A stretch of 64,000 nt of DNA from contig CACZMV010000002.1 in the NCBI GenBank assembly GCA_902782305.1, forward strand, positions 56,174 to 120,173, written 5' to 3'. The notes under the pieces are model-generated. The model searched no databases. It had not been told where the DNA came from and was given only the letters and a program-made list of their open reading frames with translations. This DNA is from an uncultured Prevotellaceae bacterium. GTDB taxonomy: Bacteria > Bacteroidota > Bacteroidia > Bacteroidales > Bacteroidaceae. A program made the translations under genes and the position numbers. Shown in pieces: positions 14,643-61,439 of this stretch (the stretch's first letter is position 1; each line of letters opens with the position of its first letter).

Positions 14643-14647
14643 ACGTG

Positions 14648-18332: not shown

Positions 18333-18381
18333 AACACAATTTTCGAGAAAAGCAAGGAAAGGGTAGAAAAGTTTATCAACG

Positions 18382-18420: not shown

Positions 18421-18434
18421 TTTACCCATTCAGT

Positions 18435-27484: not shown

Positions 27485-28213
27485 TTAGTTATTCTGCAAA
27501 GATTCTACATAATCGGGGTCGAAGTGACTATGGTATTCGATGCACAACTTTTTATAGTATTCGCGCGTAGCTTCGCTGGTGGTGTCTGCGCGGATGATTT
27601 CATAGTAGAAATGGGAGAGGCCTGGCTCTACCCCACTCTCTGTATGGATGACGTTGTAGAGCGAGTCGCCCAGCACCGGTCGGCAGATGTCCTCGGGATT
27701 GGCTGCATAGTAATTACGGTAGCTCTTGACCTGTATCTCGGTATAGAGGTACTGGAACTTCAGATTGAAGAGGTCGCCCCAATAGCCGCGGTCGCTGGTC
27801 TGGTGCTTGTAACGACCGAAGATGCCGCGCTCAGTGGCCGTCGCTGTCACGTCGTCGATGACTTTGCGTATCGAATCGTACTCGCAGAGAACGGTGGTGC
27901 GTGCCAAATCCTTCAGTTCGAAGGGGCTGGAATTATCGGTAATGCACTTGCGCTCGGTACTCTCACGTGTCTTGTAGTTAAGGGGCGTGGTCTTTCCCTT
28001 GTGGCGTGCAGCCACCTCTTCGGCAAGCGTCTGTGTAGGCGGACCATAGACTTGCGCCCAACTTAAGGCCTGATCCAGTTCATGCTGGAATTCCGTTACT
28101 GTTGATTCACCGCTGGGATTGTCGGCGCGATCACAAGAGGTAAACGAGATGCCGCAAACGAGGATGGCGGCCAGCATCCATATTTGGATGGTCTTCATTG
28201 CTTTCATCTTCAT
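27485..28213 (-). CDS. Lipoprotein of unknown function
   Basis: A 242-aa protein. The lipoprotein signal ends ILVCGISFTSCDRADN, with a lipid-modified Cys. The body is mostly helical and polar with no family I recognise. The ATG at 28213 is chosen; an upstream GTG at 28216 overlaps the previous stop (TAGTGATG), showing translational coupling to the gene before it. It probably acts together with the adjacent Big2/beta-helix lipoprotein. Confidence 0.7.
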   Translation of the reverse strand: MKMKAMKTIQIWMLAAILVCGISFTSCDRADNPSGESTVTEFQHELDQALSWAQVYGPPTQTLAEEVAARHKGKTTPLNYKTRESTERKCITDNSSPFELKDLARTTVLCEYDSIRKVIDDVTATATERGIFGRYKHQTSDRGYWGDLFNLKFQYLYTEIQVKSYRNYYAANPEDICRPVLGDSLYNVIHTESGVEPGLSHFYYEIIRADTTSEATREYYKKLCIEYHSHFDPDYVESLQNN

Positions 28214-28215
28214 CA

Positions 28216-29919: not shown

Positions 29920-29942
29920 TTTTGTTTTTATCAATTTAGTTA

Positions 29943-30509
29943 TTATTTACTTGTTCTCTTGGATTCCGTTACGAAACAGGCCACGATGCCATAAGTGATG
30001 GTGGGGCGAATCCATATTTCGGTCAGCATGAAATCGGTATATTGGTCTTGGGGTTCAAGATAGATGTCGAGGTTGTAGAGTGAGGCAATGATCACGTCGA
30101 TGATGAAGATGGTCCACAGGTTGAACTTCGAATAGGTTTTCCACTCCTTACGGGCATAGAAGTAAGTGAGCGTAATGAGGAGATACACTGAGAAGAAGAG
30201 GCACGCCAAGTGGATAGAGTAATAAGCCAATGGGGGCAGGAATAGGATGTCGCGCAACAGTATCGTTATACCCACACACACCGACGTCCAGTAGTTGAAC
30301 TGCTCGGAGGTGATGCGTATGTTGAAGAAGTACATCCACATCATCACCAGACAGGCGATGTAGAATAGGTTAAGCACCAGTTCGGGCCACGTTTCTTTCA
30401 GACCGAAATGAAATACGCCATAAATCATGATGCCCACAGAGAGTGCAGCGGCAACGGCAGTAATGCAGATGTCGAATACTTTGGCTTTCTTCTTAAATCT
30501 TGTCTCCAT
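29943..30509 (-). CDS. Small integral membrane protein, unknown
   Basis: A 188-aa protein with about five or six transmembrane helices and a basic N-terminus (METRFKKKAKVFD). No family is recognised. It lies between the fimbrillin-like lipoprotein and the Big2 lipoprotein with gaps of 14 and 23 bp, so it is probably co-expressed with the surface proteins. Confidence 0.65.
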   Translation of the reverse strand: METRFKKKAKVFDICITAVAAALSVGIMIYGVFHFGLKETWPELVLNLFYIACLVMMWMYFFNIRITSEQFNYWTSVCVGITILLRDILFLPPLAYYSIHLACLFFSVYLLITLTYFYARKEWKTYSKFNLWTIFIIDVIIASLYNLDIYLEPQDQYTDFMLTEIWIRPTITYGIVACFVTESKRTSK

Positions 30510-46046: not shown

Positions 46047-46074
46047 ACCTCTTACTTCTTCCCTCTTACCTCTT
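46047..46074. repeat. Heptamer array overlapping a stop codon and the following gap
   Basis: ACCTCTT, ACTTCTT, CCCTCTT, ACCTCTT. The TAA of the 914-aa protein gene (46066-46068) lies within it. Confidence 0.7.
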
Positions 46075-48810
46075 AATATACTTCTTACCTTGATAAACAT
46101 AGATTCCACGTGGAAGACCGCTGAACGGATCCTTCGTATCAGTTGCCATGCGTACCATGCGACCATGAATGTCGTAAACATTGGGGTCGATACGATTCTG
46201 CATGGACGGCTGTTCCACCGTGGGCACCTGGATGGCCGTAGTCGTCTGCAACAAAGTGATTGGCCAATCGCCTATATATTCATGATAGACCGTTGGACGC
46301 ACTTCACCTGTTTGCGAATCACCACCGACAGGACCGAAAACCACAGACTGCAGTAGTGCACCTTCGTCATCATAGACGAAATACAAGCCACTGGTCACGT
46401 ATGTTTTGCCGTTGGTCTTCACTTCCGAACGAATTTCCAGAAGATGCTGGTCAGAGGCTCTGATGATGTAGTGTTCAGTGAAAATGCTATCACTACCGGC
46501 AGAACCATGATAGCTGGAAACAACATGAATAGTATTGTTCTGACTGTCATAATACTCATAGTAAATGTCACTATCTATGTCAGGAACAACATCATTGCTG
46601 TCATATTCATGACTATACTCCAAACGTTTTTCGCCTGTGATGTAATTATGCGAGAATCCATTGGTAGAGATGGCATTGCCGGCATCGTCATATTTAGTCT
46701 CAATGCTCCAGAAAGGTCTCATCACACCATCGACACTCTCTTCATAGAGGATGTTATTCTTCTCATCAAGCGTGATGCACGCCTCGAGCGAATAGTCGCC
46801 GTTATTAATAATGTATTGGTCGACTCGTTCACCTGTACTGGAATAATAGCCAACGGTTTCTGCGACGGGCGTCACTTTATCGGCTGTGACAAGATCATAC
46901 TCTAACATTCTGACGTATGCAGAATCGTCTGGGAAGATATAGGACTCAAAGCCCAACATTTTGCCTCCATTGATGGGTTCGTAGAGTTTAGAACCCTCAG
47001 GAATACTGCGTGTGATAGCATACAGGCAATTTAAACCGGCATACTGAATGGAGTCGTTATGCATGAGTTCCTCAATGGTAGTGACAAACCGGCTAGATGA
47101 GTTCGCCTCGTCATCGATGCCGATTTCCTCTATCTCGTTATCCTTCTCGTGAGCGCCGTCATCGCTACCGGAGTCTGACAAAGCAGCACGCCTTGGGACG
47201 GCACTATACGTTGTAGGGATGGCTGCATTCGCCTTGGCTTGGATGGTCGTGTTGACAACAGGAATAGGATAGCTATAGTCCTGCGTGAACATGAAGGATG
47301 ACGACTCGCTTTCCTCGGTCAGCAACTGTAACATACTGTATGACGTCAGCTTGTCTATACTGATTTGAGTGAGGCCGGGGCCACTTCCCTGAGTGGAGAA
47401 GCAGTGACGCAACGTGGTAGTCGGCAACATATCCATATGACCTTGGTTATTGTTGTCGGCAGCACCGTAACTGTTCATGATATGTCCATTAGGCATACCA
47501 CACACCATCGGGTTCCAATTACCAACGCTACTGACATCGGATACAGACCCACAATTCTGGATGCTCACCTGCTGCTCAGCATATCCCACAATGCCTCCGA
47601 CATAATCTTTGCCTTTCAATGATCCGAAACTGGCACAATTCAAGATGTCACAATAGGAAGCATATCCCACGATGCCGCCCACACAAGCAGTTCCCTCCAT
47701 GATGTTACCTGCATCAAAGATGAGGTTGGCAATGACAGCATGTGACAGGAGCGTTCCCTTGGCTACTCCCACAAAGCCCAGACAGTCCATGCTCTGATAG
47801 CAGTTGGTAATGCCGCGAATACAGTGACCATTGCCATTAACCACTCCCTGGAACGGATGGTCAGGAGTGCCTAAGGGCATCATGGGCAATGTACTGCTGA
47901 ACACCAGGTCGGACTTGATGTCAACGCCTATGTTACCGGGAATATCGCCAATGGACACCAGCTCGGACAGAACGCGCATCTCACTGGCATCGTTAATTTC
48001 GTAAACCGAACCATCGGCATTGCTTTTAGGCTTGCGCAGACCACACGCCTTACACGTGCCATTGGCATCGAAATCATGGGGTTTCAACTGACCTCCGTGA
48101 ACTGTTTGTGTTCTGGAGCAACGCTCACACTTTTGCGTTTTTTCCACATTGCTCATACAGCTGGCTGTCCCTCCGGCAACCTCTTTCATGAGGCATTCCG
48201 TATAGGGAGTAGGTATGACAACAATGCTATCCTTGCTGCAAGCACCGCATTTGTAATGAGACTCGCCAGCCTTTCCACAGGTAGGATCCCTATGTTGCGT
48301 GAGGTTGAAACGATGAATATGGATGGACAAGTCGTCGATACTTCCTTTATATATGACTTTAGAACCTGTGAAAGACGTTTCTAAAGAAATATCGTGTTTC
48401 CCCTCAGAAATACTGATCCCATCAGCTTGAAAACAGACCGTGTTTGTATGGGAATGACTAATAACAGCCTCATCATCGAGCTTCGCAGTGAAAGAAATAC
48501 TAGCTCCCACAGCATCTCCACCTCCGAACTTAGGGAACACATAGAGTGCAATCTTGAATTTAAGGCATGCCGTTTCCCCCTTTGGAACTGTGACGGAGAA
48601 TTGCAAACTGTGTTCACTATATTCACCATCTACATGAAAGGAATTATCTCCGGAAATCTTATTTAAGTTTTCCAGTTCTGGTTTGGTGATGATAATACCG
48701 TCACTGGTCGTGCCTCCATCCAGGGGGAACTCCAAATCGTCTGCACGGACTGCAGAAAAATGGAAAAGACTAAACAGTATAAACGTAAAAAGGTAATATT
48801 TCTTGCCCAT
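46066..48810 (-). CDS. Cys-motif and GLUG-bearing surface protein
   Basis: A 914-aa secreted protein (MGKKYYLFTFILFSLFHFSAVRADD). After an N-terminal beta-sandwich come CxxC knots (HYKCGACSKD, TQKCERCSRT, NGTCKACGLR) near residues 185-260. GLUG units follow (GVVNGNGHCIRGITN, CVGGIVGYASYCDILNCASFG, DYVGGIVGYAEQ). The tail VYDIHGRMVR...RGIYVYQGKKYIKR is sorting-like. The ATG at 48810 is chosen over a TTG at 48819. It is likely displayed at the surface with the two giant proteins downstream. Confidence 0.8.
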   Translation of the reverse strand: MGKKYYLFTFILFSLFHFSAVRADDLEFPLDGGTTSDGIIITKPELENLNKISGDNSFHVDGEYSEHSLQFSVTVPKGETACLKFKIALYVFPKFGGGDAVGASISFTAKLDDEAVISHSHTNTVCFQADGISISEGKHDISLETSFTGSKVIYKGSIDDLSIHIHRFNLTQHRDPTCGKAGESHYKCGACSKDSIVVIPTPYTECLMKEVAGGTASCMSNVEKTQKCERCSRTQTVHGGQLKPHDFDANGTCKACGLRKPKSNADGSVYEINDASEMRVLSELVSIGDIPGNIGVDIKSDLVFSSTLPMMPLGTPDHPFQGVVNGNGHCIRGITNCYQSMDCLGFVGVAKGTLLSHAVIANLIFDAGNIMEGTACVGGIVGYASYCDILNCASFGSLKGKDYVGGIVGYAEQQVSIQNCGSVSDVSSVGNWNPMVCGMPNGHIMNSYGAADNNNQGHMDMLPTTTLRHCFSTQGSGPGLTQISIDKLTSYSMLQLLTEESESSSFMFTQDYSYPIPVVNTTIQAKANAAIPTTYSAVPRRAALSDSGSDDGAHEKDNEIEEIGIDDEANSSSRFVTTIEELMHNDSIQYAGLNCLYAITRSIPEGSKLYEPINGGKMLGFESYIFPDDSAYVRMLEYDLVTADKVTPVAETVGYYSSTGERVDQYIINNGDYSLEACITLDEKNNILYEESVDGVMRPFWSIETKYDDAGNAISTNGFSHNYITGEKRLEYSHEYDSNDVVPDIDSDIYYEYYDSQNNTIHVVSSYHGSAGSDSIFTEHYIIRASDQHLLEIRSEVKTNGKTYVTSGLYFVYDDEGALLQSVVFGPVGGDSQTGEVRPTVYHEYIGDWPITLLQTTTAIQVPTVEQPSMQNRIDPNVYDIHGRMVRMATDTKDPFSGLPRGIYVYQGKKYIKR

Positions 48811-48824
48811 ATCTTTCAATTATC

Positions 48825-48873
48825 AAGTTTCATGTTTCAAGTTTCATGTTTCAAGTTTCATGTTTCAAGTTTC
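48825..48873. repeat. Heptamer array of seven units between two surface genes
   Basis: AAGTTTC and ATGTTTC alternate: seven perfect heptamers, giving a 14-bp higher-order period. The array is bordered on both sides by TTTCAATTATC, forming a direct repeat (48814-48824 and 48870-48880). Confidence 0.9.
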
Positions 48874-50659
48874 AATTATCTTTTGACTGCTGCGATGCGG
48901 TCTCAGGCAGTACGGCATCGGAGCCACTGCCACAGATAGCCTCGGAGACATTGCCCGAAAGCGTTCCCCCAACGTTGGTACCACAGATACCTCCGGCATA
49001 GTCGCGCACGCCACCTACCCACACACTGTTTTCAGTGGTGCAGCCCGATATAGTGCCTTTGTTCAGTCCGCAGATACCACCGAGGTTCTTGCCGGAACCA
49101 ATGCTATTCATGATCGAGAATACCACACGGCAATTCTTAATCGTTCCTTCGTTGACACCTGCCACGGCACCGATATAGTCCCAGCCACGCATGTTACATC
49201 CTGCCATCGATACGTTTTCCACGGTGGCACCCTTGCCTATGACTCCAAAGAGTCCACGATAGCCAGAGCCAGCAACGGGTTCTTCCGTCTGGAGCATGCT
49301 GATGATGTGACCACCACCATCGAAGGTTCCTTCGAATGCCGTGCTGTCGGCAGCACCGATAGGATGCCACGGTCGCACCATAAAGTTATCGGCAATGAGG
49401 TCTTTGTCAAGACGGATATGGGTCTTGGGACGACGGTTGTTCACATATTCGGATATCCAGTAGAGGTTGCCGAACGACTTGATTACAAATACGCTGTCAT
49501 TGGCGCCACGAGGCTCCGTAGCAGGCTGCTCGTAGGGATGGCTACAGTCCGTTTTTCTGCAGATGCCATATTCGTTGTAGTCATGTCCTTTGCCTGGTTC
49601 CTCAAACAACGCTTTATGATAACACTCACTGCAGGTATATTCCACAAGGATGTGGTCGCACCGCTTCTGTTTGACGATGCGGCTATAACTATAGTCATGA
49701 GGGAATTTCTCGAGGAATCCGCAAGAGTCACAATAAAGGATGTGGCGCGCATCGTCAACGGGGAGTTTCACCTTACCAAATTCAGCATGGTCGGAAGGCT
49801 CCACCAGGTTACAAAGCAGACAGCGCTTGTTATGGCTTTTCCAGTCGGACGTATAGGTGGACCACTGATGGACGTCGGGTACTTCCTCGCCGCAGTCAAG
49901 ACATTTCTTATAGTGGTATCTGAATCGCGACGGGTGGTTTTCGTTATATTGTGCCCAATAGTCGTTGTTGCCATAGGACTTTTTAAAGCGGTGGGGCTCC
50001 TGCTTAACGAGTCCACACTGGTCCTTACTACAGGAATGGATATGCCAGTTCTGGTCTTTTGAACGGTATTGAGATTCATGGGTATGCCAGGTATAGAGGA
50101 AGTAACGTCCACCACCGGCATGGGGTCCGCTCCATGTCTGATCGCTGCGCCTACTGGGCTTGCTGGCACAGACTTGTATAGACTTGAGCACCCTGGTGTT
50201 AAAATCGGCTTTGCCTGTGCGGGTGATATAGAGATGTTCCTGCTTGGGATATGCTCCACCATAAATATCATAGTCACGACCATTGAGTCCGCCTCGATAT
50301 TTATTATCATAATGTGACTTCCTCTCCTGGAAGAAGAGGGCTGGCTCATACAACTTGCCATCAGCATTGAACTTAACACCATACTCGGCTCTTGCCTCCA
50401 CCTTCACACCGGTGATATATTGAGCGGTGTCGGCAGCTGTCTTATGGACGACAAACACATAGCCTCCGCCCCTGCCCTTGCGGAAATCCAATTCTTTACT
50501 GCCGATACCGTCGTAGCCTTGGGCTGAGTCGGCAAGTTCCTTATACTCATTAAGGGCAAAGACCTTGATCTCCGACACCATGCCCTGGGCCCCTGCGGGG
50601 CTAACGGGAAAGGTGCATTGGGCAATGAGTAATGCGAAATATAGGATAACCTTTTTCAT
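48872..50659 (-). CDS. Cys-rich (CxxC) surface protein with GLUG-like C-terminus
   Basis: A 595-aa secreted protein with signal MKKVILYFALLIAQ...AGAQG. An N-terminal beta-domain is followed by six or more CxxC/CxxxxC pairs with nearby His (HSCSKDQCG, KKCLDCGEEV, KRCLLCNLVE, YCDSCGFLE, YTCSECYHK, ICRKTDCSH), spaced 25-35 residues apart like a zinc-ribbon array. GLUG-like repeats lie after residue 450 (GTFDGGGHIIS, YIGAVAGVNEGTIKNC, NLGGICGLNKGTISGC). No sorting tail is seen. The ATG at 50659 is chosen; the in-frame TTG at 50683 abuts the previous stop. Confidence 0.75.
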   Translation of the reverse strand: MKKVILYFALLIAQCTFPVSPAGAQGMVSEIKVFALNEYKELADSAQGYDGIGSKELDFRKGRGGGYVFVVHKTAADTAQYITGVKVEARAEYGVKFNADGKLYEPALFFQERKSHYDNKYRGGLNGRDYDIYGGAYPKQEHLYITRTGKADFNTRVLKSIQVCASKPSRRSDQTWSGPHAGGGRYFLYTWHTHESQYRSKDQNWHIHSCSKDQCGLVKQEPHRFKKSYGNNDYWAQYNENHPSRFRYHYKKCLDCGEEVPDVHQWSTYTSDWKSHNKRCLLCNLVEPSDHAEFGKVKLPVDDARHILYCDSCGFLEKFPHDYSYSRIVKQKRCDHILVEYTCSECYHKALFEEPGKGHDYNEYGICRKTDCSHPYEQPATEPRGANDSVFVIKSFGNLYWISEYVNNRRPKTHIRLDKDLIADNFMVRPWHPIGAADSTAFEGTFDGGGHIISMLQTEEPVAGSGYRGLFGVIGKGATVENVSMAGCNMRGWDYIGAVAGVNEGTIKNCRVVFSIMNSIGSGKNLGGICGLNKGTISGCTTENSVWVGGVRDYAGGICGTNVGGTLSGNVSEAICGSGSDAVLPETASQQSKDN

Positions 50660-50683
50660 AGTTCTAATGGTTTCTTTTATCAA

Positions 50684-52684
50684 CTACATGAATTTGAAAT
50701 CGCTTTTACGCACCAGCAATGCCTGGCCAATGGTCTCTTCCGGATAAGACGTAAGATAGGCATTTTTAGGTTTCAAAGCGAAAATGCCATACTTGTCGTT
50801 ATGGTCATTGTGCAGGATATACCGCTTGTAGTCGAAGAAGGGGGGTACTTCGTCCTTCTTGATGAAATCCGGGCCGAACACCTGACCAGAGTTATACATA
50901 AACTGGATAATCTTGTTGACTTGTCCGGTATGGGCAACCTCATAGCCCACAGGGACATCCTTGAGCAAAGTGCGTACGGTGTTCATCGCCTCTTTCTTGT
51001 CGCTGGTGTTGGCCATCACACCCTGCTGCAGGAAATAAGGTCCTACCTTCATGTTGATGACGCAAGTGTCGTTCCACATATAGATGGCCCCACGGCCGAC
51101 ATGGATGTTGGACGTGTAGGACGTGGCGTCGTCGGCTGGTGCTATATCAATCTCACCATTATTATAATAGATTCTATCATCGTAGTTGAGTCGTGTAAGC
51201 GGGGTGACATAAGCCTTCGCCTGTTCCTCCTGGCCTTCGAGATACTGCCAAGTAATGGTGAACAGGCTATCGTCGCTGCATCGGCGACCAAGACCCTCGT
51301 GACATACCTTACCGCCCAACGTGGGATAGAACACTGTATATTCGACATTGTGGACATGCTCATTGAGTATCTCACCGATTACCTCATGGTCCACCACAAC
51401 CTGATTGCTGACGGATTGGGCAGTGAGTTTGAGCTCAGAGACAGGTATCTCGGCATAGACCTTCTTCCTGACGCGTGGCATGACATTGGTCTCATAATCG
51501 ACATGCTTGCCAACCATCGCGTTGTAGAGCGCGGCAACCTTACGATCCATAATCAGGTCGGCGATAGGTGCCACCTTGATATCAATCAGCTCCACATTAT
51601 TCTCGTCCTTGTCAGCACCGGGGGTGAACTTGATAGACTTGAACCACTCGTCCACAATCTTGCTCTTCAGCGCCATGTCATCGCTTTCATGCAGTCCTGA
51701 CAAGGTGAGGGCGAGGGCACTGTTGCCACCATACGCCTCGATGTGGGTTTCGCGTTGTGTCGAGGTCTTTACCGTCCAGTCTTGTGTCTCCGTACCGTCT
51801 TTCTTTCCGACGCAATAGAGGAAGGAGGCTCCTGCCTGTTTATCGACCGTGGTGCGGGAGTCAACCACATGGCGGTTCATCGTTGTACTGAACTTTATCT
51901 TGCCACCCAACTTGGCATGATAGATGATATGGGTGCCGTAGGTCTGGAACATATTCTGAATGATACGCATGGCCTCGGTATTATTTTGCTGCTGGAGCGC
52001 CTCGGAGGCCAGCTGCTGGTAGCGGCGGAATCCCGGAGAAAGGACTTCGGGATGCTGGCGGGCAATATAGTACAGGTCATAAGGCTCCAGATGGCGCGAT
52101 GCCAGCGTCATACCATCGTGAATGGTGCAGAAGGCAAACTCGTTGCTCACCATGTCGGTCTGGTTGAAGGTCGTAGAGACCTCCGTCTGAAAGAGGACGA
52201 AATCGGTCTTTATCGACGCATTGGCTGTAAGCTTCTTGCAGATAGTCATGGCATCCGTGCCACTATACACATGATGGTAGGAGGACGGAGAGATGTCGTC
52301 AACGACCGTTGTAGAGCCATGCTCTTGGTCGAACTGCTGAATGACCGACAAGTCGATAACGCGGTCGCGCACCTCGTCGTAGTCGCTGTACTTTCCTGTG
52401 CCGTTATAGCCATAGCCCACACCGTAACTGCGATACAGGTCGCCGATGTATGCCTGACGCTGAGCTGCATGCACACGTCTCCAGTGAGCCTCGTCGTAGT
52501 CGCCGTAGGCATTCTCAGGATTGTATTCCTCCATAACCGTTGAAAGGTCGTCTTCCCGGGTACAGGAAGTGAATGAAATGAGAAATGAGAAATGAGAAAT
52601 GAGAAATGCTGCGCATAGCAGTCCCTTCAAAGTCATTCCTGTTTTCACCCTCGTCCGTTTCATATCATTGTTTATGTTCATCAT
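50684..52684 (-). CDS. MACPF-domain lipoprotein (paralogue 6)
   Basis: A 666-aa lipoprotein (lipid Cys41 in SFTSCTREDD, acidic residues after Cys as in surface-exported lipoproteins). The MACPF core spans about residues 85-430: the opening YGVGYGYN, the family signature QTYGTHIIYHAKLGG at 247-261 (canonical Y-G-T-H), and a late AYGGNSALAL...DEWFKSI...IKVAPIADLI. A further C-terminal domain of about 240 residues is not recognised. MACPF proteins oligomerise and form pores; in Bacteroidales the secreted BSAP toxins are of this class. The hydrophobic core of the signal peptide is encoded by four heptamer repeats. It is the last of six tandem MACPF-like genes. Confidence 0.85.
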   Translation of the reverse strand: MMNINNDMKRTRVKTGMTLKGLLCAAFLISHFSFLISFTSCTREDDLSTVMEEYNPENAYGDYDEAHWRRVHAAQRQAYIGDLYRSYGVGYGYNGTGKYSDYDEVRDRVIDLSVIQQFDQEHGSTTVVDDISPSSYHHVYSGTDAMTICKKLTANASIKTDFVLFQTEVSTTFNQTDMVSNEFAFCTIHDGMTLASRHLEPYDLYYIARQHPEVLSPGFRRYQQLASEALQQQNNTEAMRIIQNMFQTYGTHIIYHAKLGGKIKFSTTMNRHVVDSRTTVDKQAGASFLYCVGKKDGTETQDWTVKTSTQRETHIEAYGGNSALALTLSGLHESDDMALKSKIVDEWFKSIKFTPGADKDENNVELIDIKVAPIADLIMDRKVAALYNAMVGKHVDYETNVMPRVRKKVYAEIPVSELKLTAQSVSNQVVVDHEVIGEILNEHVHNVEYTVFYPTLGGKVCHEGLGRRCSDDSLFTITWQYLEGQEEQAKAYVTPLTRLNYDDRIYYNNGEIDIAPADDATSYTSNIHVGRGAIYMWNDTCVINMKVGPYFLQQGVMANTSDKKEAMNTVRTLLKDVPVGYEVAHTGQVNKIIQFMYNSGQVFGPDFIKKDEVPPFFDYKRYILHNDHNDKYGIFALKPKNAYLTSYPEETIGQALLVRKSDFKFM
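52576..52603 (-). repeat. Heptamer array coding the signal-peptide core of a MACPF lipoprotein
   Basis: AAATGAG four times without change on the plus strand, read on the minus strand as FLISHFSFLISF just before the lipobox Cys. Same family as 4507-4541 and 10889-10916. Confidence 0.9.
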
Positions 52685-52687
52685 TCT

Positions 52688-54913
52688 CTAAAAATGTCTT
52701 ATCGTTATATATATCGGGAAATACTTGAAGTAAGCCTGGTTGGAGTAGTTGAAAGCACTCACATACTCTGGATATTCAAGCAGCAGGTCGGTTCCAGAAC
52801 CACTCAGCCGCATGATGCGGGCCTGCCCTGCATCGTCTGTGATGATAGGCAATCCCTGGCCATCGTTATGCTGAGGACCGTCAACCGTCTCATTCTGACC
52901 GAATGGGATGACGCTGTAGCCGGTTGGCCAGTCCAAACCGAGCATGTTACGACCATCGTATTCATGGCCGTAGAAAATACTCATGCGGTTGCCAAGCATC
53001 TTCGTGATACTCTTCGACTGTGCCACAGAGGGCAGATAGCCTTTCAGGTTCAGCGCATTCATCGACCGGCTCACGGCATCAATCCATCGTTTATGTCCAT
53101 ACCTGTCATCTGTATATTCTTTAGCTCGCGCGAAATTGTCGCCTCCGTCCATCAGACAGTAGTTGTATTCTTTATCTCCTTCTTTATACTTATAGAATAC
53201 TCCGTCATGGTCTTTATAGGTTGACCTGTTGAATTCCTTGAAAGCCGAGTCATTCCTCCAGTATTTCAGGATACTATCGTTTGTCAGTACCACCGGTCTT
53301 ACCGACCAGAAGGTGCTGGCCACCTTGGCAAAGTTGGTCGACTGGGCAAGACCTGCGGGTTGTAGGCTGTAGACACTGGTAGTATACGTTTTCAGCTCGC
53401 CCTTTGGCGAGGGACAGGGCTGTGGATGAGCATTGTTCCAGTAGATATACACATTCTTCAGCATATGGGTATCTTGATCGAAGAGCTCACGAATCGCTGT
53501 GCTGTCGCTTTCGGCAAAGATGCTGTCGGAAGGAATATACAACGATGCAGCACCATCCCAGAGGACACGCCCGGGACGATGGCTCTCATCGCCGACGAAC
53601 AGTCCGGAGAAAAAGTACGGATTAAAATGATCCTTGTCATCCTTGATGAGTGGATAAACCACGACACAGGTCTTGTCGCTACGGATGGAAGGCACATATT
53701 CCTGACAGATGATACATGCTTTGTCGTCTCCCAACGAAACTACTCTTACATCAGGACCGTAATTGCCCTTAACCGCCAGCTGGCCATAGGGAGGCTCATA
53801 GGGTTCCTTCATGGGTGCCTCTTTCTTCAGGTACAGTTCATATACCTTGCGCAGTGCCTGACGCGTAGTGAGATCCTCGAACAGTTCATACAACGGCAGG
53901 AAACGGCCGCTGACGAAGGATGCGTTATAGTTAGCGGGCTCAATGCTGACACTGTTTGCCCAGGCATAATAGTCACCATCGCTGATCTTCACTTCAGCAG
54001 CCTTCGTATAATCGAAAGTCTTGTGAAGTGCTTCACCGGTAGCAGCCGAACCACCCTTGACCGTGATCTTTCCATGATACTGAATGGAATGTTGTGACAA
54101 GATCGGACCGAGAATCTGCGGCTTACTGGTATTGACAACCTTTTCGCCAAGGATGACCTCAGCAACCTGCGTCGTCGCATATACCTTGTCTACGCAGGAG
54201 TCGCGGTTGATTTCCATCTGCAACTCGACCATTCCACCGAGATTTGAAGATACCACGAGGTGCGTGCCGTACTTCTGAGAGAATTTAGTGGCATTGTCTT
54301 CGTTGATGCCACTCTCTCCGTTCTTGACCAGTTCGGCAAGCTCATGGCGGAATTCTGCATCAAGCACACTTTCTTCACTGCTAAGATCGTCCAGTTTCAG
54401 ACAGTGCAGCATGCCCGCATCGATGGTATGTGTAGCCATGATGTGCTTGATGAACATATGGGCCCTGTAACAACTCTTCCACTCGCCTCGATAAGTGGTT
54501 TTGTTCTTGCGGTAATACATGCCACAACCCACCACATCACCTCCGTTGACGGTGTATTTCGTCTCCTCATGGCCAAGCTCCTCCAGCGTACAACCACTGA
54601 AGATGTCCAATGAGGTATAATGGCGACGCTCTGAACTGACAATCGGACCATTCGCCTTCTCGGCTGCATAGAGACGCGACATGTTGATGATGGGCTTCAC
54701 TGAAAAACTACTGTCGTCCATCACATTGCCGGCAGCATTGTAGGCATATCCCAAGCGCTGCAGTTTTATCTGTTCATCAGAATAGCCTCTCGTCAAACGG
54801 GGGTCGATGAACTCATCCTCACTCACATTTGTCAGGTCGTCAGAACAGGAAATGAAGAGTGAAGTGCAAAGTGAAGCGAAAAGGATATATATGTACTTGT
54901 TCATATTAGTCAT
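52688..54913 (-). CDS. MACPF-domain lipoprotein with long C-terminal extension (paralogue 5)
   Basis: A 741-aa lipoprotein (FISCSDDLTN, lipid Cys23). The MACPF core starts with LGYAYN near 54 and has the canonical signature KYGTHLVVSSNLGG at 214-227, then VKGGSAATG and the PLYELFEDL end near 360. A C-terminal domain of about 370 residues with no recognised family follows. The start at 54913 overlaps the preceding stop by 8 bp; MNKYIYILF at 54904 is an equally good start. It is one of the two most canonical pore-forming candidates in the cluster. Confidence 0.8.
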   Translation of the reverse strand: MTNMNKYIYILFASLCTSLFISCSDDLTNVSEDEFIDPRLTRGYSDEQIKLQRLGYAYNAAGNVMDDSSFSVKPIINMSRLYAAEKANGPIVSSERRHYTSLDIFSGCTLEELGHEETKYTVNGGDVVGCGMYYRKNKTTYRGEWKSCYRAHMFIKHIMATHTIDAGMLHCLKLDDLSSEESVLDAEFRHELAELVKNGESGINEDNATKFSQKYGTHLVVSSNLGGMVELQMEINRDSCVDKVYATTQVAEVILGEKVVNTSKPQILGPILSQHSIQYHGKITVKGGSAATGEALHKTFDYTKAAEVKISDGDYYAWANSVSIEPANYNASFVSGRFLPLYELFEDLTTRQALRKVYELYLKKEAPMKEPYEPPYGQLAVKGNYGPDVRVVSLGDDKACIICQEYVPSIRSDKTCVVVYPLIKDDKDHFNPYFFSGLFVGDESHRPGRVLWDGAASLYIPSDSIFAESDSTAIRELFDQDTHMLKNVYIYWNNAHPQPCPSPKGELKTYTTSVYSLQPAGLAQSTNFAKVASTFWSVRPVVLTNDSILKYWRNDSAFKEFNRSTYKDHDGVFYKYKEGDKEYNYCLMDGGDNFARAKEYTDDRYGHKRWIDAVSRSMNALNLKGYLPSVAQSKSITKMLGNRMSIFYGHEYDGRNMLGLDWPTGYSVIPFGQNETVDGPQHNDGQGLPIITDDAGQARIMRLSGSGTDLLLEYPEYVSAFNYSNQAYFKYFPIYITIRHF

Positions 54914-56105
54914 CTTCGTAGCTATGTAATGATTTATCCATATAGTTCTTCAGGATGGTGCGTGTCTTGGGGTCGTAGATAACCTGATAGATAGGCACCA
55001 GACGAATGTCGATCAGGGCGGCATCCTGAGGGGTCACCGACGCCTGCCACTTTTTCAGTGTCTCCACGTCTATCGTTCCCTGCTGACCGGTAGTGAATGC
55101 CGTCACGAGCGACAACTTACCGCCACGGGCGGTGATATGGCTCTCTGAATTGCGGTTGCACTTCTCAGCAGCATCCTTGTATTCGACATCGACAGAGGCA
55201 CTGATGGAAATGAATTTGATCTGAACCGTCATTTCAAGCGCCACCTTCACATCGAGCGAAGTAGACACGGAGTCCATATTCGTGACGTTGTAATAGTCGA
55301 GCGAACAACCTAAGACGGAGCGGGTCACGAAGCCGGAACCCACCTCGTCGATGAACTCGCGGCAGATACCGCTGGCAGCATAGGCTGAGGGAGCGGCATG
55401 AATCTTTCGGATAAACTTCTGCATCACGTCTGAGAAGCCGGGGGCATAAATCTCACGGAAGATCGGTACCACCTTGGCAATCGAGTCGGCATCAACGCTG
55501 GGGAAAGTATTGGCCAACGGAGAAGCAGCAATGGCATCGGTTACCTTTTCACGCAGATTCAGGTAGTTGATGTCGCGCGAGAAGTAACTCTGCTTCAAAC
55601 GCATCAACGAATAATAGTTCTTCGTAGTTGAGAAGTTCTTCTTGTTGAAGGCCACATCCACATCTACGGAGAACGCTCCGGCATTCACGCCGATACCGAT
55701 GTCTAACCCCAACGAGTCCTTCAGGGCCTTGGTACTCTCGCTGTAGTAGAACTTCTGCTCGCTGGCTGGGATGTAGTCGTCAACAATATAGGAGGTATTG
55801 TACTTCCTTTCCATATCGCGCAGCGTGCGCATGTTAAACACTTCCATATCAGTGCCGACACAATATGACTCGTTGTCCCTGTAGGTATAGCCTGCACCAC
55901 GAATGGCGCTGATGGCGTCTTCTACTTGCTTCAACTCTTCGGAGGTAGTGGCTCTGGTAAGCCATGATACCGGCGTCGTACTGTTTTCGGTGTTATTGGC
56001 AGTCTGCGGTGTCTCAGGAACACTGAGCCCATCGTCGCCACTGCTGCATGATGCCATTGTCAACATGCCCACTGCTACATATATATGTAATAAGGTGTAC
56101 TTCAT
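54906..56105 (-). CDS. MACPF-like lipoprotein, degenerate signature (paralogue 4)
   Basis: A 399-aa lipoprotein (TMASCSSGDDG, Cys20). The opening GAGYTYRDNESY is near 70. The segment in the signature position reads DEVGSGFVTRSVLGCSLDY (253-271), with VGSG replacing Y-G-T-H. ARGGKLSLVTAFTTG, KKWQASVTPQ and RLVPIYQVIYD close the domain. No extra C-terminal domain is present. It has the same layout as paralogues 2 and 3, so they probably form a subgroup of accessory or immunity-like MACPF proteins (inference). It starts 14 bp after paralogue 3. Confidence 0.75.
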   Translation of the reverse strand: MKYTLLHIYVAVGMLTMASCSSGDDGLSVPETPQTANNTENSTTPVSWLTRATTSEELKQVEDAISAIRGAGYTYRDNESYCVGTDMEVFNMRTLRDMERKYNTSYIVDDYIPASEQKFYYSESTKALKDSLGLDIGIGVNAGAFSVDVDVAFNKKNFSTTKNYYSLMRLKQSYFSRDINYLNLREKVTDAIAASPLANTFPSVDADSIAKVVPIFREIYAPGFSDVMQKFIRKIHAAPSAYAASGICREFIDEVGSGFVTRSVLGCSLDYYNVTNMDSVSTSLDVKVALEMTVQIKFISISASVDVEYKDAAEKCNRNSESHITARGGKLSLVTAFTTGQQGTIDVETLKKWQASVTPQDAALIDIRLVPIYQVIYDPKTRTILKNYMDKSLHSYEDD

Positions 56106-56119
56106 ACCTGACTATTTGT

Positions 56120-57238
56120 CTATTTCGCGTTCGTACGTAAAATATAGTTCACTCTGTCTTGCACCTCACCGGTGAAGAGGTTTGCAATGGATGCAATCTT
56201 CACATCGGTCATGGCGCACATTCTCAGTTGGTCGCTTGCGGGAGTGGGGGCGAAATCAACGCTCTGCATCCACTCCTTGATGCCTTGCGGCGAGGAGGTT
56301 TCACCCGCCAGTATCGCAGTCACCGCCTGTACATTACCACCACGGACGTGGATGTCCAGGCTGTAGCGGTCATGTGAAATCTTCTGGAACTGCTCACTCT
56401 GCACACTGCCTGAGGCTTCAGCACCCATGAGAATTCCCACGCTGGCATTGAGCGCCATACCGACACTCATGTTCTCAGAGAGTGACGACTTGTCTATCTG
56501 CAACGTAAATTCCAGCACGCCACCCATGAACGAGCGTGCCACGAAGCCCCTACCCCATTTGTTCACGAAGTCGAGAACCATCTGATTGCTCACGTTGGCC
56601 TGATTGGTGTTGTAGCCTTCGAGCATCTTCCAGTCGGCATAGAAACCAGGGGCAAACACCATACTGTCGCCCGTTTCCTTGTAGTACATGATGATATTCT
56701 TGTACTGCAGGTCACGGCAGTATGCCACTCGCTTGGTGCGCTTCATGGCAAACACCGACTGGCTCTCCTGTACACTTCCCTTGGAGTAGTTACCTGAGAC
56801 GCTGATGTCAGCCACGATGAAGTTGACGCCAACACTTGCCGACAGTGCCAATTGCTGCGACACGGCACTGCGTGTCTCGGCGGTAATAACCTGTTCCTCA
56901 CTATAGGGAGTATAATCATCGCTGATGAAGTTCAGCCCCTTGACATACTGGATGGAGTCCAGATAATTGAGGTTGAAGATGTTGAAGGCCACTCCTTCCA
57001 GATATTCAGCACCTGTGGCATAGGTATAGCCTACTCCACGCTCGAATCCTGGAGGAGCCAGCAGCCGAGTCTCATAGCCCCCTGGTGCCGGTTCTCCATT
57101 GGCATAGAATGCCCCCATGGCATTTTTACGGCCAAAGGCAGCTTTCTCTTCATTTGTCAATGGGTCGTCACTGCTACAGGAAAACATTCCAAGCACACCG
57201 ACCAGAAGGAGGAAACAATATAAACGGTTCGTCTTCAT
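56120..57238 (-). CDS. MACPF-like lipoprotein, degenerate signature (paralogue 3)
   Basis: A 372-aa lipoprotein (GMFSCSSDDP, Cys21). GVGYTYATGAEYLEG is near 68. The segment in the signature position reads NKWGRGFVARSFMGGVLEF (226-244). VRGGNVQAVTAILAG and KEWMQSVDF end the fold. It is shorter than classical MACPF proteins and lacks the Y-G-T-H. It lies 29 bp after paralogue 2. Confidence 0.75.
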   Translation of the reverse strand: MKTNRLYCFLLLVGVLGMFSCSSDDPLTNEEKAAFGRKNAMGAFYANGEPAPGGYETRLLAPPGFERGVGYTYATGAEYLEGVAFNIFNLNYLDSIQYVKGLNFISDDYTPYSEEQVITAETRSAVSQQLALSASVGVNFIVADISVSGNYSKGSVQESQSVFAMKRTKRVAYCRDLQYKNIIMYYKETGDSMVFAPGFYADWKMLEGYNTNQANVSNQMVLDFVNKWGRGFVARSFMGGVLEFTLQIDKSSLSENMSVGMALNASVGILMGAEASGSVQSEQFQKISHDRYSLDIHVRGGNVQAVTAILAGETSSPQGIKEWMQSVDFAPTPASDQLRMCAMTDVKIASIANLFTGEVQDRVNYILRTNAK

Positions 57239-57267
57239 CTCTTATACTCTTTGATTATGAGACATTC

Positions 57268-58665
57268 TTACTGTCTGAATTTCACATTAAAGTAGCTCGT
57301 CAACACATCACGGGCATCCTTATCGGTAATCAACGCATAGATGGGAGCCAGCGTCATATCGACCATCACGGCTTGGGTATGACGACAACTGTTCTGCCAA
57401 GCCGAGACCTGGTCGTCATTCAATGCGCCGCCAGTGACTAGGATACACACCTGGCTCACATCGCCTCCACGCACCTTGACGGTTGCCGTTGTCTTGCTCA
57501 TGATCTCTTGGCCTACCTTGGAAACGCCAATGTCGAACGAGCCTCTACCACCAACATTCTTATTCTTTATCTTGGTCTGGAAACTGGCCTCGAGGGCTAC
57601 CTTGACACCCAGCGTATCACGGAGCAACGTACTGTCAACACTGATCTGATAGTCGAGCACGGCACCCATCGCCGACTTGCTGATGAAGCAAGGGCCTACC
57701 TCATCCAGGAACTTGTCGCAAATGTCATACTGCTTTGTCTGATTATCCTTCACAGCAGCTAAGTCCTTGACAAATCGCTCCTGAAGAGAGAGGAATCCCG
57801 GCGACAGCAGTTTCTGCTTTTCTTCACGCGTGGTGGCCTTCTCCAACAGGGCCATGATGTTCATGAAATGAATCTCACGGGTAAACTGAGTGGTCTTCTG
57901 GCGCTTGAGGGCGTACTTGTTCTTTGACTTCTCCTGATGACCTGTGCCCACTCCGACAGTGACACTGCCGCTACCACTACCGCCTCCCTTGCTCTTCACC
58001 GAAGTGAAGTCCATGCCAGCCGAGGCATTGACGGTAAGGCCTTTGGTGAGGCTTTCCTCACTATCTCCAGTAAAGATTTCCTGCATGGACTGCGGGAATA
58101 TGGCATCAGTAATCAGCATAACACCCGTAGCACGCTGAATGCTGTCGAGCGTGACCAAGTTGAACAACTGAATCAGCGCTCCGTCGCAATATTCGCCACC
58201 AGGCATGTAGCTATAGCCGGCACCCTTGTTGGCAGAGAACACCGTCGAAACGGAGTCCAACGAAGGATTGGTAGACTGGACAATCGACAGGTTATAGTCG
58301 CCACCAGCTCGTCTGGTAGCGCCCTGCGTGTTGAGCGTCAGCACATTCTCGCGCATCGTTCCCCAGTTCTCACCCACCTGAACAAGAGCCGTGGTAGGAC
58401 CTTCGCCTTCCGACGGATAGACATTTGCCAGTCCCTTCGACGTTGTTACAGACCACTTGCCCGGCACGTTGATGTAGGCAGTATACTCCCCATAGGACGC
58501 ACCTGTACTTACCAAGCCGTTCGCTGGGGCACCGAGAATGGAAAGCGGAGCAGTGCTGCTCTCGCCTCCACTCTTCTCATTGCCTATCATATCCTCGCTG
58601 CTGGAGCATGCTGCCACGAGAGCGGCAACAAGCAACAGCACCGGGTAAGATATGTATCTGTTCAT
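57268..58665 (-). CDS. MACPF-like lipoprotein with N-terminal BACON-like domain (paralogue 2)
   Basis: A 465-aa lipoprotein (LVAACSSSED, Cys20). Residues 40-125 form a BACON/Ig-like beta-sandwich with GKWSVTTSKG and VQVGENWG. The MACPF-like part then starts at GAGYSYMPGGEYCDG. It has DEVGPCFISKSAMGAVLDY (321-339) in place of the Y-G-T-H signature, a Gly/Ser-rich loop at 225-242, and VRGGDVSQVCILVTGG...WQNS...LAPIYALITD. The N-terminal domain is shared only with paralogue 1. Confidence 0.75.
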   Translation of the reverse strand: MNRYISYPVLLLVAALVAACSSSEDMIGNEKSGGESSTAPLSILGAPANGLVSTGASYGEYTAYINVPGKWSVTTSKGLANVYPSEGEGPTTALVQVGENWGTMRENVLTLNTQGATRRAGGDYNLSIVQSTNPSLDSVSTVFSANKGAGYSYMPGGEYCDGALIQLFNLVTLDSIQRATGVMLITDAIFPQSMQEIFTGDSEESLTKGLTVNASAGMDFTSVKSKGGGSGSGSVTVGVGTGHQEKSKNKYALKRQKTTQFTREIHFMNIMALLEKATTREEKQKLLSPGFLSLQERFVKDLAAVKDNQTKQYDICDKFLDEVGPCFISKSAMGAVLDYQISVDSTLLRDTLGVKVALEASFQTKIKNKNVGGRGSFDIGVSKVGQEIMSKTTATVKVRGGDVSQVCILVTGGALNDDQVSAWQNSCRHTQAVMVDMTLAPIYALITDKDARDVLTSYFNVKFRQ

Positions 58666-58721
58666 ATATACAATAATTTTAACAGTCTAAACCGGGTAAA
58701 AAAACATTCCGATTTTAGCCA

Positions 58722-60182
58722 CTAATCATCCAGCTTACCAAAACCGTCTTTTGCTCGATCGAGTTTGTAACTCTTGTCAATCAATTCCTTAAGATCCTTG
58801 TACGCTTTCTGCTCTGCATCAGACTTACCGTTAAAGAGGACGTAAATAGGCTGTACATCAAATCCTGTCAACACTGCCTCTTCAGGTTTGGCACCGAGCA
58901 TCCATGCTGCCAGATCATCACACTTGAGCTCGCCACCGGTGGTAAGAATGCTCACTTTCTTCACGTCATTACCACGTGCATTGAGTTGTGCCTGGGTAGA
59001 AGAAGCTGCGCTGAACGTAGAATCCCTCACCATCACACCTCCATGGAATACGAAGTTCTTTCTCACACTGTCTGGGAGTAACTTTTTGAGACTATCCAAC
59101 TTAGCAGAGTCAACACCGGCAGTGTCTTTCACCTGCTGCTTCCACTTAAAGTCAAGAGCTGCCTTCACGTCTGTGGCCTTCTTGGCTTTGGTAGCGGCAA
59201 CAGCCATTCGGTAGTGAAGTTCACAGCCAAAAAAGGCTTTGGTAACGAAATGTGAACCATAAACCATGAAGAATTCCTGTGCTACTTTCTCCTTGTCAGC
59301 ATCAGTAGTGGCGGCATTGAACTTAGTGATGAAAGCTTCCTTGTAAGCCTTGAAACCATCGGTGAAATTGTCTTGGTTTTGCTGCATGTCAGCAAAGTTG
59401 ATCTCACGGCTGTAAACCGAACGCATCAGAGACTTCTGCATGATCGTAAAATTGAAGCTGCTCTTACGGGTTACAGCCGCATTGTCTAAGTCCAGACTCA
59501 TTTTGACGGCACCGAAGTTTCCACCAGGATGACCATTGACATTAACAATCTTATCCAATACTTCCTCGCTGTGAGCATAGAAATATTCCTCTTTTGCCTG
59601 GGGTGAAATACTGCTAACGACGTTGGGATCATTGGCACTCATCTTGAAAATCTGCTGGCCCGTGCACAACTCAGGAACCGTGTTCTTGTTGGCATAGTAG
59701 CCATAGCCCACAAAGATGTTCGAGTTAAGAAGCTTTTTGAAGCCCTCAACGTCGTTGCCCGACTCCTGGTTCACCGTCTGAGAACCTTCACCAGCACGAC
59801 GCATTTGCTTGGATTGACCATTGACGAAGTTCACCTTGAAAGTCAACTGACGAGCGTCTGCCCAGTTGTTGCCAATATATACTGGCACGCGTGCACTGCC
59901 TATACCACACATTTTGGTAGGCGTGAACTCCATGTTGTTGCTGGGCTCAATATACCAAACACCATCGGTCTTGATGTTCAGGTAATAGGTACCCATGTCA
60001 GCAGAAACACTTGAGAGTTGCTGATTGTTAGCATCAGTCAGTACAGACGAATACATCGGCAACTTGTCCATGAAAGTGGGAACGGGTGTTGACTCAACCT
60101 CAGAAAAAGTTGAATCCGAACAAGCGGTAAGGGCTGATAAAGCCACTGCAGTTACGAAGAACTGTTTCATTAATTTTTTCAT
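58722..60182 (-). CDS. MACPF-domain lipoprotein, first gene of the locus (paralogue 1)
   Basis: A 486-aa lipoprotein (SALTACSDST, Cys21). A BACON-like beta-sandwich at 60-125 (VWYIEPS, VYIGNNWADARQL) precedes the MACPF core: FVGYGYYAN near 158, signature MVYGSHFVTKAFFGCELHY at 306-324 (Y-G-S-H, close to canonical), ARGNDVKKVSILTTGGEL and QPIYVLFNG. The ATG at 60182 is chosen because the open frame up to 60254 runs across the promoter. It probably initiates the whole co-transcribed series. Confidence 0.8.
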   Translation of the reverse strand: MKKLMKQFFVTAVALSALTACSDSTFSEVESTPVPTFMDKLPMYSSVLTDANNQQLSSVSADMGTYYLNIKTDGVWYIEPSNNMEFTPTKMCGIGSARVPVYIGNNWADARQLTFKVNFVNGQSKQMRRAGEGSQTVNQESGNDVEGFKKLLNSNIFVGYGYYANKNTVPELCTGQQIFKMSANDPNVVSSISPQAKEEYFYAHSEEVLDKIVNVNGHPGGNFGAVKMSLDLDNAAVTRKSSFNFTIMQKSLMRSVYSREINFADMQQNQDNFTDGFKAYKEAFITKFNAATTDADKEKVAQEFFMVYGSHFVTKAFFGCELHYRMAVAATKAKKATDVKAALDFKWKQQVKDTAGVDSAKLDSLKKLLPDSVRKNFVFHGGVMVRDSTFSAASSTQAQLNARGNDVKKVSILTTGGELKCDDLAAWMLGAKPEEAVLTGFDVQPIYVLFNGKSDAEQKAYKDLKELIDKSYKLDRAKDGFGKLDD

Positions 60183-60224: not shown

Positions 60225-60255
60225 CAAAGATAAGCAATTTTTCAAAAAAAACAAA
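60225..60255 (-). promoter_or_regulatory. Promoter of the MACPF/surface-protein locus
   Basis: The minus strand has TTTG (60255-60252), a 19-bp spacer and TATCTTTG (60232-60225), a near-ideal Bacteroidales promoter. The leader would be about 38 nt. No comparable -33/-7 pair was found in the gaps between the next genes down to 31.9 kb. Confidence 0.8.
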
Positions 60256-60341: not shown

Positions 60342-61439
60342 TTACCGGGCTTGGTCGCGCATCCAGGCAGACACTGACTGCCCCATGCGCTGCTTGAAGG
60401 CCAGACTGAAGGTGCTGTAACTGCGGTAGCCACTTTCACGAGCAAACTCCTGGGCGGTAAGGTCGCGACCGGCAGCGGCGGCCTCGTGATAGAGGCTGAC
60501 GAAGTGTTGAATGCGCAGATTGTTGATATAAGTATTGTAAGTCATGTTCTGAGCTGAGAAATACTGGCTCAGATAAAAACGGTTAGTACCAATGGCCTGA
60601 GCCAACTGACTGACGGTCAGGTCGTGCTGCAGGTAGAGCTGTGTATCGATGCAGCGTTTTTGCAAAAAAACCTCCATTTCATCGAGATTTTTTTGATTCT
60701 CAGGGGTGGCATTTTCCTCCTCATTGACCGCCAATGGCTGGCGGATGCTCAGGTCGCTTAACGTCTCCACGCGCCACAGGAGATGGCATATCATCACAAT
60801 GCCACACACCTGGACGATGTATTCGTAAGCCAGTCCCCCATAACCACTCGCGTAAATGGAGAACACCAGCAGAATGACGGCCAGCACCAGGAAACTCTGC
60901 CATACCTCCTTGTGCTCCAGGTCGACATAGTTGTCGCGCAGCCAGCGTCCGTAGCGTCTCACCTCGCGTACCATATATATAATAAGGCCGATGCCCAATA
61001 GCAGCAGATAGATACGCACCATCGGCAGGATGGCATCGCTACAGGTGACGATGCAGTACACCATTCCTACAATCGTGGGCAGCATCATCACCCAGGCTGG
61101 CCACAGCGGTCGCTGGCGGTCTTGCAACATACAGAGCAAGATGACAAAGGCCAAGGGGACGGTCAGCAGGCAGTCGAGCAGTGCGCCAATCAGCAAACTC
61201 AGCAGGATGGCATCAGCTGAAGTGAGCATGACAGGAGGCAAATACCACAGGTGTCCTAACGCAATGACAGCAAAGAACACTGCTGTCCAACGGCGCAACC
61301 GCGCTGGAGGCGTGACGTCGGGGGCAAAGGCGTTACCTCGGCGCAGCAGGAGGTAGAGGCATGCAATGGTTGCCATGACTGTTCCTGCGGCGTAGAGCAT
61401 CATCAGAAACATGAGGTCAAATGGTAATTGCCCGAACAT
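60342..61439 (-). CDS. Membrane-anchored AraC-family transcriptional regulator
   Basis: A 365-aa protein. Residues 1-230 carry seven hydrophobic helices. After a charged linker (NEEENATPENQKNLDEME), residues 255-365 form an AraC/XylS DNA-binding domain: helix-turn-helix 1 LTVSQLAQAIGTNRFYLSQYF, and helix-turn-helix 2 LTAQEFARESGYRSYSTFSLAFKQRMG. It would sense an envelope or membrane signal and act on nearby DNA. It lies 160 bp upstream of the MACPF locus on the same strand, with the 21-bp-spaced repeats between them. It may be transcribed with typA (45-bp gap, no good promoter seen). Confidence 0.88.
   Translation of the reverse strand: MFGQLPFDLMFLMMLYAAGTVMATIACLYLLLRRGNAFAPDVTPPARLRRWTAVFFAVIALGHLWYLPPVMLTSADAILLSLLIGALLDCLLTVPLAFVILLCMLQDRQRPLWPAWVMMLPTIVGMVYCIVTCSDAILPMVRIYLLLLGIGLIIYMVREVRRYGRWLRDNYVDLEHKEVWQSFLVLAVILLVFSIYASGYGGLAYEYIVQVCGIVMICHLLWRVETLSDLSIRQPLAVNEEENATPENQKNLDEMEVFLQKRCIDTQLYLQHDLTVSQLAQAIGTNRFYLSQYFSAQNMTYNTYINNLRIQHFVSLYHEAAAAGRDLTAQEFARESGYRSYSTFSLAFKQRMGQSVSAWMRDQAR

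Follow-up and report, generated by a model that had tools for sequence, protein, structure and literature searches.

A fixed array of six MACPF lipoprotein genes in Prevotellaceae and its three-gene relatives

Organization of the six-gene array

The window analysed here is a stretch of 64,000 nucleotides from an uncultured Prevotellaceae bacterium (contig CACZMV010000002.1 of assembly GCA_902782305.1). Six adjacent open reading frames of its minus strand, all encoding lipoproteins, fill positions 50684–60182. An earlier note, made from the sequence alone, had described them as six tandem MACPF-like lipoprotein paralogues, a description that the open reading frames, the Pfam family PF01823 and blastp comparisons all uphold. 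The labels m1–m6 for these genes and their products, and g7–g14 for genes around them, were coined in this analysis. The array is composed as follows:

m1, 58722..60182, minus strand: 486 amino acids, MACPF lipoprotein without C-terminal domain; about 150 residues precede the MACPF part
m2, 57268..58665, minus strand: 465 amino acids, MACPF lipoprotein without C-terminal domain; a fixed GPCF at the signature position
m3, 56120..57238, minus strand: 372 amino acids, minimal MACPF lipoprotein; a fixed WGRGF at the signature position
m4, 54906..56105, minus strand: 399 amino acids, minimal MACPF lipoprotein; GxGF, mostly GSGF, at the signature position
m5, 52688..54913, minus strand: 741 amino acids, long MACPF lipoprotein of the LA class; GTH kept
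m6, 50684..52684, minus strand: 666 amino acids, long MACPF lipoprotein of the LB class; YGTH kept

From m1 to m6, the intergenic gaps are 56, 29, 14, −8 and 3 bases. Only m5 and m6 extend beyond the MACPF part (by about 280–380 residues), m1–m4 stopping there. The C-terminal domains of m5 (about 380 residues, encoded at about 52691–53830) and m6 (about 280 residues, about 50687–51517) have no assigned fold.

MACPF membership and paralogy

The earlier note had suggested a search with PF01823. Five of the six proteins of the window score above the Pfam cut-off, with E-values from 1.4e-7 to 4e-12 (m1 1.3e-8, m2 4e-12, m3 1.4e-7, m5 1.4e-10, m6 3e-11), and m4 itself had no match in the Pfam scan. 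The same family was sought in the members of the alignments of m1–m5 orthologues. It was found in all six members for m1, m3 and m5 and in six of seven for m4 (best E-value 4.6e-10, matches accepted up to 1). Just one of the six m2 members matched, although m2 of the window scores best, which counts against membership.

Comparisons by blastp connect m2 to m4 (E-value 3e-42) and to m3 (6e-30), m1 to m2 (9e-27), m3 to m6 (7e-15) and m5 to m6 (8e-5), the main alignments showing roughly 17–27% identity. The most distant member, m5, is linked to the others through its Pfam match and a profile match to m6 (E-value 2e-10). Judged from these similarities, m1–m6 are true paralogues. A search of the window's own genome returned four matches, all inside the array; m2 and m4 were not among them, so a further diverged copy could exist elsewhere. 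Among sequence profiles compared with the PDB, that of m6 is the sole one with a significant MACPF match (2qp2, E-value 3e-5). The best matches of the others were C6 for m4 (0.36), an insecticidal protein for m2 (0.21) and a lipase for m5 (0.4), with none for m1. PF01289 gave no match in m1–m6 at E-values up to 1 under the usual HMMER filters. No PADLOC match was obtained for m1–m6, for g7 or for one each of the X, Y and Z proteins mentioned below, and nothing came near an NCBIfam cut-off among eight proteins scanned.

Signature position and lipoprotein tether

The canonical MACPF signature is (Y/W)GTH...GG. In 19 orthologues of each paralogue, m1 keeps G(T/S)H (G in 19, T in 15 and S in four, H in 19), m5 keeps GTH (19/19) and m6 keeps YGTH (19/19). 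In the other three the signature is replaced, by GPCF in m2, WGRGF in m3 (19/19) and GSGF in m4 (17/19). Of the motifs that the earlier note had regarded as common to all six, the GY.Y opening, the segment at the signature position and the closing block do align, and m2, m3 and m4 lack the canonical signature. As the replacing letters are strongly conserved, this loss appears to be under strong constraint and suggests that m2–m4 are specialised rather than decaying.

The acidic residues that had been noticed behind the lipid cysteine recur in 16 to 19 of the 19 orthologues of each paralogue when searched by pattern (positions +2 to +7: m1 18, m2 19, m3 17, m4 19, m5 16, m6 17). The orthologues that escape this count do not match the lipobox pattern, m3 of the window (..MFSC) being among them, and one row is a fragment. 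These data support the presence of surface-export-type tethers on m1–m6, which would direct them to the outer surface.

Conservation of the six-gene set

A profile of m4 matched 20 of 398 genomes of the genus, the window's own included, and a single one, again its own, of 399 genomes from 30 genera of the family. A second collection yielded 27 loci whose titles name Prevotella, Prevotellaceae or Bacteroidales. Fifteen of them carry isolate names in the style of RUG, Rumen_Coassembly or Red_deer (RUG presumably standing for rumen), and the rest give no habitat. Pooled, both collections amount to 28 distinct loci, counting the window. All six genes occur in the same order in 26 of these, the two exceptions being contigs of 3.2 and 3.5 kb; the survey of gene number that had been proposed for related genomes therefore gave a number fixed at six and a fixed order. 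The 26 loci fall into 24 groups at 95% and 20 groups at 90% identity of m2 DNA, and of their 156 genes a single one, m1 in L095, is broken up or truncated, close to the end of its contig. The m2 DNA is 99% identical within two pairs, L041 with L150 and the window with L095, which are hence not independent loci.

Each of m1–m6 forms its own clade with a support of 99–100 in two trees, one built from four loci and the other from three. Identity to the window, taken from five relatives (six for m4), is 48–56% for m1, 70–76% for m2, 75–81% for m3, 72–78% for m4, 62–67% for m5 and 69–73% for m6, so that the signature-less m2, m3 and m4 are among the best conserved members. The median dN/dS ratios of m1–m6 are 0.32, 0.22, 0.17, 0.20, 0.25 and 0.19; they are rough values, obtained by a simple method at high median dS (0.7–1.1). 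By this measure, the co-inherited genes are under purifying selection.

One explanation for such a locus would be an arsenal of independent single-component toxins with differing targets, similar to the BSAPs, MACPF-domain lipoproteins of the cell surface (PMC12853789). The strong divergence of the paralogues would fit it, but their number and order are fixed, with no gain or loss in the 26 loci, and their sequences are conserved instead of variable. Four of the six, m1–m4, are also poorer candidates for independent BSAPs because they have no C-terminal domain of the receptor type described for these toxins (PMC12853789). We therefore consider an arsenal improbable, the fixed set and order fitting obligate partners better than a changing collection of toxins.

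Three-gene relatives

PF01823 matches were found in 21 of 120 genomes of the genus, 28 of 301 of the family and 17 of 247 of the order, the window's genome being counted each time, and they were often clustered in the genomes of the genus and family. The 35 loci fetched were chosen for these often clustered matches and give no estimate of the frequency of the three-gene operons described here. They include a truncated six-gene array (L048), three loci unmatched by the profiles of the six families (L056–L058) and several single-gene loci.

Eighteen of the 35 loci carry both a long m5-like gene, LA, and a long m6-like gene, LB. According to profiles built from the clusters, a short gene, S, is also present in 16 of the 18; of the two exceptions, L046 has no S and L178 begins inside LA at a contig end. 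S comes first in all 16 triplets, and the order of LA and LB swaps among loci. Another lipoprotein gene, X, sits between LA and LB in L051 and L174. S is called a MACPF protein because its profile matches m2 over nearly the full length (E-value 2.8e-22), m1, m3 and m4 (1e-15 to 1e-16), and also m6. In the tree, m5 groups with LA (support 100/98) and m6 with LB (89/85), a topology forcing m6 with LA being rejected (p-AU 0.006); m1–m4 group together (96/89). In the nine of the 16 triplets that were compared, distances are correlated among the three components S, LA and LB (r 0.88, 0.93 and 0.93, uncorrected for the species tree).

These relationships suggest that m1–m4 likely descend from an S-like subunit in four copies that have since diverged, and that the ancestral form was probably a three-component operon of S, LA and LB. 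Three-component MACPF operons occur in other genera of the family, and the six-gene set is part of this wider kind. In L164, L165 and L166, a second type of triplet encodes proteins of about 440, 796 and 426 amino acids that fall outside S, LA and LB in the tree.

A BACON domain passes the cut-off at the N-terminus of one S and one LA protein, both from L169, and lies below it in four more of the seven S proteins scanned. In m1 and m2, Pfam reports no such domain. Since m2 can be aligned with S almost from end to end, a BACON-like N-terminal region is probable for it, and the region preceding the MACPF part of m1 might be of this kind too.

A linked C13-protease lipoprotein

All 16 triplet loci with room for it, of both triplet types, encode a lipoprotein that combines a binding-protein domain and a C13-protease domain; L164, L165 and L166, of the second type, are no exception. 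Such a gene lies upstream of m1 in three of the 24 six-gene loci examined, the window not being among the three. The linkage suggests that this lipoprotein could act as a trigger. C11 and C13 proteases both belong to clan CD. A C11 protease was considered as a specific partner and set aside: of the 12 array genomes searched, 11 contain one, but the window's own genome gave no match. In L191 and L193, the region upstream of m1 contains a row of X-like lipoprotein genes, five to six in number and encoding about 470–505 amino acids each, beside the Y/Z protease module.

Promoter-like site and neighbouring genes

The array is flanked on the minus strand by the following features:

60225..60232, minus strand: promoter-like TATCTTTG, 42 bases ahead of the ATG of m1; TTTG lies 19 bases upstream of the motif
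60342..61439, minus strand: AraC-type regulator upstream of m1 (HTH_AraC, E-value 1.7e-11), with a hydrophobic N-terminal half
g7, 48872..50683, minus strand: 603 amino acids, secreted-type, directly after m6; GLUG below the cut-off
g8, 46066..48819, minus strand: 917 amino acids, secreted-type; GLUG motifs (E-value 2.1e-5)
g9, 40931..46024, minus strand: 1697 amino acids, secreted-type; InlB-B-type repeats (PF18998, E-value 3.9e-13)
g10, 31983..40934, minus strand: 2983 amino acids, secreted-type; Listeria-Bacteroides repeats (PF09479, E-value 2.5e-9)

The site before m1 is called promoter-like by the Bacteroidales promoter consensus. From 42.8 to 60.2 kb, TANNTTTG occurs nowhere else on the minus strand; across the window, the motif is not significantly enriched (39 found, 31.4 expected). 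The gaps from m6 to g7, g8, g9 and g10 are 0, 52, 41 and −4 bases. Since the gaps from m1 onwards are short and there is only one promoter-like site, m1–m6 and g7–g10 likely form one transcription unit of about 28 kb. The AraC-type gene is a candidate regulator; it is close to m1 in some loci only and its position is not fixed.

The downstream genes accompany the array in relatives. In the other six-gene loci, g7 lies downstream of m6 in 24 of 25. All 25 have g8, which is divided between two reading frames in L102 and truncated by the end of the contig in L095. Of the 24 loci with room for g9, 23 have it. Where the region further downstream was inspected (L036, L037 and L042), g10 follows g9. 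The sole relative with a reduced downstream part is L033 (G007, 14000–19300), which has no open frame for g7 and carries g14 after g8 in place of g9. Relatives of g7–g10 were not detected by blastp in the fetched triplet loci.

Further genes were noted around the array. The lipoprotein g14 (window 27485–28216, 243 amino acids) is a candidate surface protection protein; among the fetched loci, relatives lie directly after g8 in G007 (85% identity) and upstream of m1 in G040 (59%). The hydrophobic protein g12 (29943–30509, 188 amino acids) varies in position around the array. It was rejected as a specific immunity partner, being present in 60 of 249 genomes of the genus against 20 of 398 for m4. 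The lipoprotein g13 (28216–29934), downstream of the array, has Big_2 and beta-helix repeats and shares about 35% identity with LB MACPF proteins of 1185 amino acids in two triplet loci (L171:3982–7536 and L172:4646–8203). The one of these two that was scanned has beta-helix repeats like those of g13 behind its MACPF part; g13, a separate gene in the window, looks as if it were fused to LB there. Genes with a weaker resemblance to g13 are found close to the array in L036 and L203. Two large secreted-type proteins of the window (14728–18264 and 18435–20351) have very similar C-terminal parts.

Relation to known pore-forming systems

The closest parallel in organization is with the CDCLs of the same phylum, described as two-component, protease-activated and complement-like (PMC11169675). 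They are encoded by adjacent genes for a short and a long lipoprotein, the long one serving as platform and the short one being C9-like, and are activated by a C11 protease (PMC11169675). In the same way, the genes considered here are adjacent SpII lipoprotein genes with the short ones first (m1–m4 before m5 and m6, and S at the head of all 16 triplets), and in both systems the components lie on separate branches of the tree (PMC11169675). The activating protease is C11 there (PMC11169675), and a C13-protease gene is found in relatives here. As described, however, CDCLs are found by PF01289, whereas m1–m6 match PF01823, and they have two or three components instead of six.

With the BSAPs, the six proteins share the surface lipoprotein type, the PF01823 MACPF domain and the export signal behind the cysteine; among BSAPs, too, there are members with a BACON N-terminus and members without a C-terminal domain (PMC12853789, PMC4999547). 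BSAPs are reported to act singly, whereas six fixed paralogues or S, LA and LB triplets are found here (PMC12853789, PMC4999547). A 2025 survey of BSAPs counts MACPF proteins one by one, 20 of 214 having no C-terminal domain, and its sections on these counts do not mention operons (PMC12853789). Here, a C-terminal domain of the receptor-binding type appears to be confined to m5 and m6. The earlier note had held that such an array is unlike the single-gene BSAPs, and both the set structure and the absence of a C-terminal domain from m1–m4 agree with this. By the PF01289 test the six-gene set is not a CDCL, and by its set structure it differs from BSAPs.

The complement membrane attack complex comprises C6, C7, C8 alpha, C8 beta and C9. 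By analogy only, it would resemble the present set in having several different MACPF chains per ring, some initiating and one polymerising; it differs in being made of eukaryotic plasma proteins with extra domains, as against bacterial lipoproteins of one operon. According to the authors of the CDCL study, a platform-and-recruit mechanism is otherwise known just for complement (PMC11169675). In the open-licence literature (preprints and most subscription papers lying outside it), no title among the matches listed deals with operons of several MACPF genes in Bacteroidota, and a search for MACPF, Bacteroides and legumain together found no paper.

A putative six-component pore complex

The locus can be read as encoding one surface-displayed, hetero-oligomeric MACPF pore complex of six lipoproteins used against other cells, a reading that we hold to be evenly balanced. 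The targets would most likely be other Bacteroidota of the same habitat. Its functioning could be viewed as follows. The six proteins, given their lipoprotein signals and acidic tethers, would reach the outer surface. As m5 and m6 are the sole members with C-terminal domains, they may bind the target and act as a platform, by analogy with the long CDCL component and the C-terminal domains of BSAPs. The proteins m1–m4 would then be recruited in turn to a ring seeded by m5 and m6 and would supply most of the barrel, as the short CDCL component and C9 do. In relatives whose operon includes the C13-protease lipoprotein, activation would likely be proteolytic. The secreted-type proteins g7–g10 would probably serve in contact or attachment. 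A more specific version, which we put forward more tentatively and rate somewhat below an even balance, is that the set is an obligate six-subunit pore derived from a family-wide, three-component, ligand-sensing MACPF system activated by a C13 protease, the polymerising subunit of which was duplicated.

Several observations weigh against a pore complex. Alternation in the putative hairpin segments is uneven. It was scored as the number of orthologues with a shuffle p below 0.05, in hand-chosen segments and with p uncorrected for the number of tests; the CH1 segment alternates in 11 of 18 orthologues for m1, 3/19 for m2, 0/19 for m3, 11/19 for m4, 0/19 for m5 and 7/19 for m6, and CH2 in 2, 13, 3, 19, 4 and 0 of 19 for m1 to m6, respectively. 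These counts best support m4, followed by CH2 of m2 and CH1 of m1, and do not support CH1 of m3, CH1 of m5 or CH2 of m6. The profiles of m1, m2, m4 and m5 have no significant MACPF match in the PDB, and those of m3 are weak (0.026 and above) and rank below an unrelated viral protein (0.0039). None of the seven triplet S proteins scanned passes the PF01823 cut-off, three reaching 15–18.5 of the 21.5 bits; the grouping of m1–m4 with S has a support of only 53/87, and a topology that places them with LB instead is not rejected either (p-AU 0.187). The window carries no protease in cis, and its genome, 88% complete, has no C13 or C11 match. No clear immunity gene was found, g12 being too widespread. 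Lastly, co-inheritance would also fit any jointly useful set of lipoproteins.

Two other explanations bear on the same data. One or both of m5 and m6 could be active toxins, with degenerate m2–m4 acting as immunity proteins or brakes by spoiling the ring on the producer. The canonical GTH is indeed missing from m2–m4 in all 19 orthologues of each, but the strongest CH2 alternation is retained by m4 and m2, loss of GTH is no proof of lost insertion, and triplets contain their short member no less constantly than LA and LB, all of which makes a brake quite unlikely. Alternatively, the proteins could form a non-lytic surface assembly, that is, rings, scaffolds or binding complexes on the producer or its vesicles, with the adhesin-like g7–g10 used for attachment or substrate capture. 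In favour of it, g7–g9 are linked about as tightly as the MACPF genes, the repeats of the downstream proteins look adhesin-like, CH1 of m5 and CH2 of m6 show zero alternation, and antimicrobial activity went undetected in several of the Bacteroides MACPF proteins that have been assayed (PMC4999547). However, the fetched triplet loci carry the C13 protease without blastp-detectable relatives of g7–g10, which looks like regulated activation, and the MACPF proteins of this phylum described with a known function kill (PMC12853789). We consider such an assembly somewhat unlikely.

Significance

If the pore complex is real, it would contain more different MACPF chains than the complement membrane attack complex. 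A requirement for partners may explain why some Bacteroides MACPF proteins were inactive in the antimicrobial tests reported (PMC4999547). The six- and three-part MACPF sets would then provide a simple genetic system for understanding how pores choose and order different subunits, their fixed composition making the ordering of MACPF pore subunits testable in bacteria.

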